From Methanosaeta sp. PtaB.Bin018 (GTDB lineage: Archaea > Halobacteriota > Methanosarcinia > Methanotrichales > Methanotrichaceae): 32,578 nt of DNA. Below the pieces are notes generated by a model, which saw only the letters and a program-made list of their open reading frames with translations, searched no databases and was not told where the DNA came from. A program made the position numbers and the translations under genes. Location of the stretch: positions 1 through 32,578 of the forward strand of contig MVQH01000056.1 in NCBI GenBank assembly GCA_002067755.1, given 5' to 3'. Positions 29,063 to 31,753 of this stretch are shown one piece after another. Positions within the stretch are counted from its first letter, which is position 1. Each line of letters starts with the position of its first letter.

Positions 29063-29614
29063 TCACAAATTTGCGAAATGCTCCAAGATCCAACTGTTTC
29101 GCACCTCAGGATGAAATATTATGCCATAGATCGGCAGGATCTTGTGCTTGAATGCCTCCGCATGCTCATCGCATCCTGCCAGGAGCAGGAAATCATCCGG
29201 CAAAGTCACGCCAAAGTTATGCAAATGATAACCCTCTATCGTCCTCGGCTCGCCCAACAACGCAGACGCCCGAATTATCTCAATGGCCTCAAGGCCAATT
29301 GCCTGCTGCGAAACTATCCTGCCGCCAAATACTGATCCTATGACCTGCATCCCTGCGCAGATGCCCAGGACTGGCGTGCTACAGCATTTAATCCAGAAAA
29401 ATGAATTAATATGTTCTGCGTAGTAGTTATCCTTGAGGGCTGTGCCACATAGGATTATTTTATCGAACTTCTCTGGCATGAGTCGCGCAAGCTCCGAATA
29501 ATGCCAGATCTCGACTGAAAAACCAGAGCGTTCGAGGGTGTCTGCAATTGGATGCACGAACTCATACTTCGAGAGAGAGTCCTTCTCAATGCACAGATCC
29601 ACCAACAGGATCAT
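29063..29614 (-). CDS. Class I glutamine amidotransferase domain protein coupled to dph6
   Basis: 183 residues from the ATG at 29614, which overlaps the dph6 TGA (4 bp). The triad is intact: nucleophile Cys86 in LGICAGMQ, with His168 and Glu170 in IFHPEV. The fold recalls the GuaA/TrpG glutaminase, about 185 residues, with no synthetase domain attached. Such a subunit releases ammonia from glutamine for a partner. The N-terminus (LLVDLCIEKDSLSKYEFVHP) is not the usual GuaA start, so I do not name it guaA. Overlap with dph6, whose product uses ammonia, suggests a possible partner. Its stop abuts that of the convergent SGNH hydrolase gene. Confidence 0.85.
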   Translation of the reverse strand: MILLVDLCIEKDSLSKYEFVHPIADTLERSGFSVEIWHYSELARLMPEKFDKIILCGTALKDNYYAEHINSFFWIKCCSTPVLGICAGMQVIGSVFGGRIVSQQAIGLEAIEIIRASALLGEPRTIEGYHLHNFGVTLPDDFLLLAGCDEHAEAFKHKILPIYGIIFHPEVRNSWILEHFANL

Positions 29615-30291
29615 TTGTCCACCAGCCGCATCTCTTCGATGAAAAGCCGTCCGCTGAAATTGCAGTAGCTTCTAGACGACCTCAAGATCTCAAGCCGCTT
29701 TTGGAAGATCGGACCGTCCAAGACCATCGTCTCAAGCTCTCCGCCCTCGCCTGAAGGGCTGACCTTATATCTTTTCCAGAGCTCTTCGAGCCTGCAGATG
29801 CACTCCAAAGTCAGCTCTTGGCCCAGCCAGGAGGCATCGAAGGGATAGGCGAAGACGCCGGTGATGATAACCTGGAAGCCTTCAGATAATAGCAGCCTCA
29901 GATAGTCCACCTGATTTATCTGCCAGAGTGGATTGAAGCACCATAGATCGAGGGCTTTGCAGATTCTCTGTGTGCGCACCGCCTGGTAAACCGACTCGAT
30001 GGCACCACTGACGACGCCCTGTATGCCATATTCATCTCTGGCATCTGCGATGGCAGCTGCCAGATCCTCAAGCTCCTTCTCCTTCTCTCCAAGGGTAGGC
30101 CAGCTGAGCAGTGGTAGGCCAATTGCCTCGGCCTGCAAGCTGGTGCGCTGGATATTGGGCGTGTGGAACATGTAGCTGTCTGGATTCTGGGAGATGAGAG
30201 TAATCAGGCAGGCTACCTGATTCTTTTGCATGGCTCGATAGGTTGCGAAGACGGAGTCCTTTCCGCCTGAGAAGAGAACGCCCAGCTTCAC
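29611..30291 (-). CDS. dph6: Diphthine--ammonia ligase (Dph6-like PP-loop ATPase)
   Basis: 226 residues from a GTG at 30291. The PP-loop SGGKDS is at residues 8-13. Typical family segments follow: FHTPNIQRTSLQAEAIGLPL, a GIQGVVSGAIESVYQAVRTQ stretch, PLWQINQVDYLRLLLSEGFQ, and GEGGELETMVLDGPIF near the C-terminus. In eukaryotes Dph6 amidates diphthine on elongation factor 2, the last step of diphthamide synthesis; archaeal homologues are assigned the same role. It starts 4 nt after the cbiP stop and overlaps the amidotransferase gene by 4 bp, so all three are probably one transcript. Confidence 0.92.
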   Translation of the reverse strand: MKLGVLFSGGKDSVFATYRAMQKNQVACLITLISQNPDSYMFHTPNIQRTSLQAEAIGLPLLSWPTLGEKEKELEDLAAAIADARDEYGIQGVVSGAIESVYQAVRTQRICKALDLWCFNPLWQINQVDYLRLLLSEGFQVIITGVFAYPFDASWLGQELTLECICRLEELWKRYKVSPSGEGGELETMVLDGPIFQKRLEILRSSRSYCNFSGRLFIEEMRLVDK

Positions 30292-30295
30292 AAGA

Positions 30296-31747
30296 TCATG
30301 CGTCCAGGTCGAGCATTCGCCAGATCTTTTTCATGTCCAGACTGCTTTGAACTGCCCCTGCCAGCTCATCGAAGCCATCTCCTCTGGACGCTTGTTCTCG
30401 CGACAGGTTCCGGCGACTGTATAGATAGTCAAGAAATGAATTGCGGAAGTTATCATTCTCGAAGATGCCATGCAGGTAGGTACCAATCACAAGGCCGTCT
30501 TCGGACACTGCACCGTCGTCCTCGAAGGCAGCGTCGCCAGCGGGCTGTGTCACACCCATGTGGATCTCATAACCTGTGACCTCTTGGCCCCGAATATTTT
30601 CCAGAATAGGGCCTCTCCCTGTGACCTTCTTTTTTACCTGTACAGTCCTCTTTTCATAAAGATCGAAACGCGTCACCGCATCCAAGATCCCCAGGCCCGG
30701 GACGGTCCCGAAGGTGTCCTCGATGCCGCAATCGATTATCTCCCGCCCCAACATCTGATAGCCTCCGCAGATACCAAGAACTGGCGTGCCCTTCAGTGAT
30801 AGAATCTGCCGGTCCATACCCTTCATCCTCATCTCCCGAAGATCCGATACTGTGTTCTTGGTGCCAGGGAGGATCACAGCATCAGGATTGCCAAGAGACT
30901 CACCAAGGCCTACGTACCTGACACGGGCGGAACGCTCCAGTGGCTCGAAGTCCGTGAAGTTACTGATGCGAGGAAGCTTGATCACGGCAATCTCGACATC
31001 CTCTTGAGGGCCGCGAGCTTTCTTGTCGCCGAGGGATACCGAGTCCTCCGAGGGTATTTCCAGATCAAGATATGGAAGAACGCCCAAAACGGGAACGCCT
31101 GTAAGCTCTTCCAGCGACTGCATCCCGGATCCGAGGATTGCAGGATCGCCCCTGAACTTGTTGATCACAAGTCCCTTGACCAGCGGCCGAATATCATCGG
31201 GAAGAAGCTGAACTGTGCCAAAAAGGCTGGCGAAAACCCCCCCACGCTCGATGTCTCCAACCAGGATTATCGGGGCCTGCAGGTGGCGTGCGACGTAGAT
31301 GTTGGCGATATCCCTATCGAAGAGATTGATCTCTGCAGCACCCCCTGCACCCTCTACTACTATGTAATCATAGTCCTTCTGCAGCTCCTGGATGGAGCGA
31401 TCGACTACCTCCTTGAGGCCCTCGATGCCCAGATAATATTCCTCAGCAGATTTGTCGGCCAGCGGCTTGCCAAGGACGATGACCTGGCTGGTGCGGTCGC
31501 CCTTAGGCTTGAGGAGGATGGGATTCATGAACTCGCAGGGCTCAGTGCGGGCTGCCCAGGCTTGCACTGCCTGAGCAATTCCGATCTCCCCGCCAGAGCG
31601 CGTCACCCAGGAATTCAAGCTCATATTTTGGGACTTGAAGGGGGCGACCCTCAAGCCACGATTGCTTAGCAGGCGACACAGGGCTGCGACAAGGGTGCTC
31701 TTCCCGGAGTGGGACGTGGTGCCAAGGACTACGATGATGCGAGCCAT
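30296..31747 (-). CDS. cbiP: Cobyric acid synthase
   Basis: 483 residues from the ATG at 31747. A TTG at 31753 overlapping the upstream stop is a slightly longer alternative. The N-terminal half is a dethiobiotin-synthetase-like ATPase: VVLGTTSHSGKSTLVAAL P-loop, APFKSQNMSLNS, VEGAGGAAEINL, VGDIERGGVFASL. The C-terminal half is a class I glutaminase with VLGICGGYQMLG (nucleophile Cys), GYEIHMG and YLHGIFEN. It amidates four side chains of adenosyl-cobyrinic a,c-diamide in cobamide synthesis, needed for methanogen corrinoid methyltransferases. It sits in a five-gene minus-strand run after two small helical proteins. Confidence 0.96.
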   Translation of the reverse strand: MARIIVVLGTTSHSGKSTLVAALCRLLSNRGLRVAPFKSQNMSLNSWVTRSGGEIGIAQAVQAWAARTEPCEFMNPILLKPKGDRTSQVIVLGKPLADKSAEEYYLGIEGLKEVVDRSIQELQKDYDYIVVEGAGGAAEINLFDRDIANIYVARHLQAPIILVGDIERGGVFASLFGTVQLLPDDIRPLVKGLVINKFRGDPAILGSGMQSLEELTGVPVLGVLPYLDLEIPSEDSVSLGDKKARGPQEDVEIAVIKLPRISNFTDFEPLERSARVRYVGLGESLGNPDAVILPGTKNTVSDLREMRMKGMDRQILSLKGTPVLGICGGYQMLGREIIDCGIEDTFGTVPGLGILDAVTRFDLYEKRTVQVKKKVTGRGPILENIRGQEVTGYEIHMGVTQPAGDAAFEDDGAVSEDGLVIGTYLHGIFENDNFRNSFLDYLYSRRNLSREQASRGDGFDELAGAVQSSLDMKKIWRMLDLDA

Positions 31748-31753
31748 ATTCAA

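Follow-up and report, generated by a model that had tools for sequence, protein, structure and literature searches.

The diphthine--ammonia ligase Dph6 was predicted in a 2012 study (PMC3541065) that described fusions of Dph6 to AsnB-type and RidA proteins and considered that the source of NH3 may vary by organism. In that study, Dph6 is marked by the motif EGGExE and the related DUF71-B12 subgroup by ENGE(F/Y)H. Work in yeast found the RidA-like domains to be required and asked why archaeal Dph6 manages without them (PMC3585130), and Dph6 is described as using ammonium on the strength of yeast work (PMC5354562). The archaeal assignments have been called uncertain (PMC8305020).

Described arrangements in which an additional module accompanies Dph6 are of different kinds. 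The AsnB-type-Dph6 fusions of Methanohalophilus, Methanosalsum and Nanosalinarum tie a glutaminase physically to Dph6 as a proposed ammonia source (PMC3541065). In yeast and plants, Dph6 bears RidA (YjgF/UK114) domains as an extra C-terminal module, for which ammonia supply has likewise been suggested (PMC3541065, PMC3585130). The locus analyzed here, in which dph6 is followed by a gene for a class I glutamine amidotransferase (GAT), shares with these systems an added module next to Dph6 but differs from each. The AsnB-type fusions place a class II domain at the N-terminus and contain an extra Asn_synthase PP-loop domain, whereas GAT is a triad GATase, encoded as a separate gene or a C-terminal fusion, with no second PP-loop domain. 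Class II glutaminases have an N-terminal nucleophile. The RidA domains are deaminases of unrelated fold rather than glutaminases. Like archaeal GMP synthetase, made up of GuaA subunits A and B, the pair combines a separate class I GATase with a PP-loop ATP pyrophosphatase; unlike GMP synthetase, it has a different PP-loop partner, and GAT falls below the GuaA subunit A cut-off and has a signature of its own.

No class I partner of Dph6 is seen in the main text of PMC3541065, from which Methanosaeta and Methanothrix are absent, and our searches of open-access papers turned up none that treats a class I GAT together with Dph6. As far as these sources reach, a class I GAT partner of Dph6 appears to be new; a fused glutaminase as the ammonia source of Dph6 is not (PMC3541065, class II, 2012).

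The dph6-GAT locus

The window, by which we mean the whole 32,578-nucleotide stretch analyzed (contig MVQH01000056.1 of the Methanosaeta sp. PtaB.Bin018 assembly GCA_002067755.1), carries the pair on its reverse strand. The dph6 gene (29611-30291, GTG start) encodes a 226 aa diphthine--ammonia ligase scoring 268.6 bits against NCBIfam TIGR03679 (Dph6_archaeal; cut-off 197.3), with the PP-loop SGGKDS at residues 8-13 (30253-30270, reverse strand) and the motif GEGGELET at residues 181-188 (29728-29751, reverse strand), which has the Dph6 form and not the DUF71-B12 form. The three features by which we recognized Dph6, a TIGR03679 score above cut-off, EGGExE and the SGGKDS PP-loop, are thus all present. 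The GAT gene (29063-29614, reverse strand, ATG start) encodes a stand-alone class I glutamine amidotransferase of 183 aa, matching PF00117 at 68 bits (cut-off 22.8). Its nucleophile Cys86 lies in GICAGMQ (codon at 29357-29359, reverse strand), and His168, Pro169 and Glu170 lie in FHPEV (codons at 29105-29113, reverse strand), so that GAT has both the PF00117 score and the Cys-His-Glu triad that define a class I triad GATase; the combination of a class II GATase domain (GATase_7/GATase_6) with Asn_synthase was not found in it. The only Pfam matches of GAT are PF00117 and PF07722. The upstream neighbour, cbiP (30296-31753, reverse strand; NF001989 at 601 bits against 273), ends 4 bp ahead of dph6 and encodes a cobyric acid synthase that itself contains a GATase_3 domain.

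The initial annotation, made from the letters of the window, had described a 4-bp overlap of dph6 with a complete class I glutaminase (Cys86, His168, Glu170) lacking a synthetase domain, downstream of a cbiP gene with a glutaminase domain of its own. These points were borne out: the overlap is the ATGA at 29611-29614 (reverse strand), joining the dph6 stop to the GAT start, the PF00117 match and all three catalytic residues are in place, the Pfam scan found no synthetase domain attached to GAT in the window genome, and cbiP has its GATase_3 domain.

The rest of the pathway is also encoded in the window genome, with Dph5 at 319.6 bits and Dph2 at 279.5 bits. Its EF-2 carries LHEDAVHRGPAQ, holding the histidine of the diphthamide region, which we take to be the modified site. 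A single PF01902 protein was found in this genome, Dph6 itself, and no second one.

Distribution of the pair across archaea

Among 60 related genomes, clear GAT orthologues were confined to the window's own family; Dph6 adjoins GAT on the same strand in 30/30 fetched loci, and Cys86, His168 and Glu170 are invariant in all 30 aligned sequences, which come from the window and its relatives. Searching species-representative genomes with an alignment of GAT sequences gave 416 stretches and 220 relatives, the best 80 of which provide the counts of named loci given here and below. These 80 come from Methanotrichaceae, Methanomicrobiales and Methanofastidiosia and from metagenome-assembled genomes (MAGs) labelled Aenigmatarchaeota, Woesearchaeota, Pacearchaeota, Nanohalarchaeota, Nanoarchaeota, Bathyarchaeota and, in one case, Desulfobacterales. 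The nearest named locus among the matches listed is from a Methanothrix sp. MAG, with a GAT 91% identical; the window genome is related to Methanothrix. Dph6 lies upstream of GAT on the same strand in 78 of these best 80 of 220 relatives, with exactly the same 4-bp overlap in 59; the genes are separated by a gap within about 115 bp in four loci (L039, L086, L089, L092) and by 2.5 kb in one (L096). Neither of the two exceptions is a counter-example: one locus (L104) starts at a contig end, and in the other (L077) GAT follows a run of N, and its first 27 residues are encoded immediately after dph6 at a distance of about 72 kb in that record (L144). This split GAT (CP086218) may reflect misassembly, rearrangement or withheld sequence, which look alike here.

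The initial annotation had proposed a survey of gene neighbourhoods and named a lack of conserved pairing as a finding that would go against it. We surveyed 850 archaeal genomes in four phyla (156 Halobacteriota plus 279, 300 and 115 others) and found that the pairing is conserved: the GAT family occurs in 110/850 genomes, Dph6 is present in all 110, and in 102 of them it immediately precedes GAT on the same strand. In Halobacteriota, where 155/156 genomes have Dph6, 38 have GAT; in 37 of these Dph6 precedes it directly, by no more than about 180 bp, and in the exception (G062) by 1.4 kb; the remaining 118/156 genomes are without this GAT, making a lone Dph6 the commoner state. For the phylum that includes a Woesearchaeota MAG, the 55 initial hits, spread over 54 genomes, were reduced to 51 GAT genomes out of 279 by removing GuaA-like sequences with GICLGFE or GICFGHQ (G466:C18, G312, G325, G398); in 44 of the 51, Dph6 directly precedes GAT at a distance of up to 0.75 kb. 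The seven others comprise four with Dph6 on the same strand at 1.3-3.1 kb (G322, G195, G222, G455), one at 41.6 kb (G240), one with the two genes on different contigs and another gene behind dph6 (G466), and one in which contig ends truncate the locus on either side (G212). GAT adjoins Dph6 in 16/16 GAT genomes in the phylum of a Bathyarchaeota MAG (300 genomes) and in 5/5 in that of a Methanofastidiosia MAG (115 genomes). By our estimate, chance adjacency would be expected in about one in a thousand genomes of roughly two thousand genes. Because the pairing recurs across archaeal phyla, we do not attribute it to chance. No GAT relatives were found in the viral contigs searched.

Several individual genomes deserve comment. 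The Desulfobacterales label belongs to a MAG in which the dph6-GAT pair sits on a 5.9-kb low-coverage contig (L078, JALVSJ010000185), which is probably archaeal and binned wrongly. In a one-contig 3.2-Mb genome (L150, G124:C1:2951000-2953500), a frame change disrupts the GAT gene next to dph6, which may be a decay of the GAT subunit or a sequencing error. One genome of the window's family, 99% complete (G145), yielded neither Dph6 nor GAT at the search thresholds and is the only one of the 156 without Dph6.

Phylogeny of Dph6 and its glutaminase partners

The Dph6 tree has 144 rows, with the GAT-paired near-copies thinned from 148 to 114 and all lone rows taken from the Halobacteriota sample. 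A single clade of 115 rows holds all 114 that are GAT-paired, its remaining row being the interrupted-GAT locus L144, in a tree whose deepest-node support is weak (74). The pairing label changes twice on this tree, against 27.6 times in shuffles. A separate clade (support 99) consists of six rows in which Dph6 is fused to an AsnB-type (class II) glutaminase, four of them Pfam-confirmed and two (L221, L222) labelled from frame length, and of one row labelled lone (L219), in whose genome a separate AsnB-type gene immediately precedes dph6 (locus L246). This gene (L246:3104-4639, forward strand, genome G043) has a class II glutaminase domain, and its placement directly upstream of dph6 makes it a split form of the AsnB-Dph6 fusion. 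The other 22 lone rows lie outside both the GAT-paired and the AsnB-type clades.

A Dph6 hit in a frame of at least 600 aa was found in 24/155 Halobacteriota genomes, of which the one in G101 is probably open by accident and the other 23 are likely fusions. Asn_synthase and Diphthami_syn_2 were present in all four of these frames that were scanned and GATase_7 in three, the fourth being cut at an internal ATG. The 24 genomes do not overlap with the 38 that have the class I GAT. Four genomes without GAT, one in the window's family (G034) and three in families that otherwise bear it (G169, G093, G189; family codes f13 and f22), have a different Dph6. The Dph6 of G034 (L155/L249) is of the lone type and branches far away in the tree, which gives the appearance of a replacement of the entire unit. 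Because paired, AsnB-joined and lone Dph6 separate in the tree, Dph6 and its glutaminase partner appear to be inherited and replaced together.

Natural fusions and structure prediction

Counted from reading frames, which show some long open frames to be accidental (L020/L047; G153, G116), Dph6 and GAT form a single frame with a linker of 29-57 aa in 14 of the best 80 of 220 relatives; in one of the 14 (L063), the frame is interrupted within the Dph6 portion. We predicted the structure of one natural fusion (L054:5236-6546, 437 aa) from an 80-row alignment, obtaining a mean pLDDT of 93.9 and a pTM of 0.91, confidence being low in the linker, around residues 231-250. Residues 1-226 of the model match the ATP-bound Dph6-type protein of Pyrococcus furiosus (3rk1, Z 33.6), and residues 250-437 match GuaA subunit A (2a9v, Z 25.1), the fold that GAT shares (Z 25.1 and 23.6). 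The pTM of 0.91 suggests that the modelled placement of the Dph6 and GAT domains relative to each other is confident. We put little weight on this arrangement because it comes from one model and a second prediction that used only the 13 fused rows scored poorly (pLDDT 59.9, pTM 0.49). GMP synthetase chains match the GAT part of the model only, and we therefore claim no shared domain arrangement.

Conservation and loss of the catalytic residues

An alignment of the 138 family sequences scoring above 90 bits shows Cys86 in 121 of them, His168 in 135 and Glu170 in 137; Gly57 is kept in 137/138 and Gln90 in 121/138. Cys86 is replaced in the remaining 17/138 sequences by serine (11), glycine (5) or aspartate (1). 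On a tree of the 136 sequences with at least 140 residues, these losses map to four separate changes, giving four Cys-less lineages: a Methanoculleus-type group of ten, a clade from the search of the Bathyarchaeota phylum (L168-L172), and the single loci L167 and L156. The last (G115:C1:1452500-1455500), from the window's own family, has lost His168 as well, and the ten Methanoculleus-type GATs have also lost Gln90, to R or L. Besides L156, L167 and L168-L172, the 17 Cys-less copies comprise those at L081, L082, L084, L093, L094, L099, L101, L102, L107 and L110.

All 17 Cys-less GATs are still beside dph6, and eight Methanoculleus-type pairs show purifying selection (dN/dS 0.18-0.42 for GAT and 0.12-0.29 for Dph6). 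Since Cys86 is lost while the gene and its pairing are retained, hydrolysis through Cys86 cannot be the only role of GAT and is not needed everywhere. Going by their sequences, the Cys-less GATs have a role besides hydrolysis or have turned into a non-hydrolysing subunit, and we regard them as candidate pseudo-glutaminases. In these four lineages GAT is probably a structural or regulatory subunit only, with Dph6 probably working there on free ammonium.

Alternative explanations for the pair

GuaA subunit A is the closest solved relative of GAT in both sequence and fold, and GAT could in principle be the GMP synthetase glutaminase, placed beside dph6 by chance; we consider this extremely improbable. 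The window GAT scores 64 bits against the GuaA subunit A equivalog NF001975, whose cut-off is 198, and a separate GuaA-like protein is encoded elsewhere in the window genome (G000:C60:11975-12298). Family profile scores across the 156 Halobacteriota genomes are bimodal, at 130-268 bits for GAT and at most 85 for GuaA-type hits, and a tree of 132 GATs with 13 GuaA/TrpG rows puts the two on opposite sides of a branch with an SH-aLRT support of 100. Leu14, Glu18, Pro22, His38, Thr58, Leu60, Trp74, Ile106 and Asn173, among others, are near-constant in GAT and differ in most of 12 GuaA-type rows, the GAT signature reading SLSxxEFVxPI and CGTALKD where GuaA has other letters. The conserved pairing with Dph6 speaks against the same reading. 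Orthology to GuaA, which the initial annotation had named as a finding that would overturn its proposal, was tested and not found, and we reject GAT as a GuaA orthologue on the 64 against 198 bits, the separate GuaA-like protein and the tree split. A role of the pair in cobamide metabolism together with cbiP, as in the DUF71-B12 type, has the close upstream position of cbiP and the B12 salvage link of some DUF71 proteins (PMC3541065) in its favor, and is also very unlikely: the window protein passes TIGR03679 and has EGGELE, the Dph6 EGGExE form, instead of ENGE(F/Y)H; the sole PF01902 protein of the genome occurs with Dph2 and Dph5; and among the best 80 of 220 relatives, 19/35 Methanotrichaceae-type loci have cbiP close to the pair, against 0/45 others. 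Membership in DUF71-B12 and a role in the cbiP pathway were accordingly rejected on the motif and on the absence of cbiP from those 45 loci. We give as little credence to the pair amidating some other carboxylate while something else amidates diphthine. The substrate of the pair in these organisms is a prediction, which leaves room for such a reading; against it stand the lack of a second PF01902 gene in the window genome, the single strong Dph6 found in most paired genomes, and the presence of Dph2, Dph5 and the EF-2 target.

A more serious contender, though still unlikely, is that GAT serves Dph6 mainly as a structural or regulatory subunit, for example in EF-2 docking or in stabilising Dph6, with the glutaminase activity vestigial or optional and free ammonium as the nitrogen source. 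The four separate losses of Cys86 with gene and pairing retained, and with purifying selection where measured, are what such a role would produce. The high retention of Cys86, His168 and Glu170 in the family as a whole, along with Gly57 and, largely, Gln90, argues in the other direction, as a whole triad persisting across four phyla is unexpected under a purely structural function; so does the fact that a neighbouring Dph6 clade has been joined to glutaminases of an unrelated class.

A putative glutamine-dependent diphthamide synthetase

We conclude that dph6 and GAT form a real, conserved and functionally coupled pair, with a proposed role for GAT that is well supported by sequence comparison. 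The two genes quite likely encode two parts of a glutamine-dependent diphthamide synthetase, with GAT as the glutaminase subunit. GAT would hydrolyse glutamine through the triad Cys86-His168-Glu170, Dph6 would use ATP to activate the diphthine carboxylate on EF-2 as an acyl-adenylate, and ammonia passed from GAT to Dph6 would amidate the activated diphthine. From the likeness to GMP synthetase we infer a physical complex, channelling of ammonia and glutamine as the nitrogen donor. The suggestion in the initial annotation that GAT is a dedicated ammonia donor of Dph6 thus gains support from the conserved pairing (102/110 GAT genomes), the fusions (14 of the best 80 of 220 relatives) and the separation of the family from GuaA. 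With somewhat less assurance, we lean slightly towards a wider scheme of two archaeal Dph6 enzymes: a lone, ammonium-using form, and a glutamine-dependent form with two branches that have unrelated glutaminases, spread or replaced as a unit, and that would include four pseudo-glutaminase lineages.

If this reading is right, many archaea would have a dedicated putative glutaminase subunit for a step whose described donor of the diphthamide amide nitrogen is ammonium. The natural Dph6-GAT fusions could be expressed as one chain, making the source of ammonia directly testable, and the Cys-less lineages may serve as natural controls for roles of glutaminase subunits besides hydrolysis. Dph6 would offer a clean case of a PP-loop ligase with two unrelated glutaminases in neighbouring clades.
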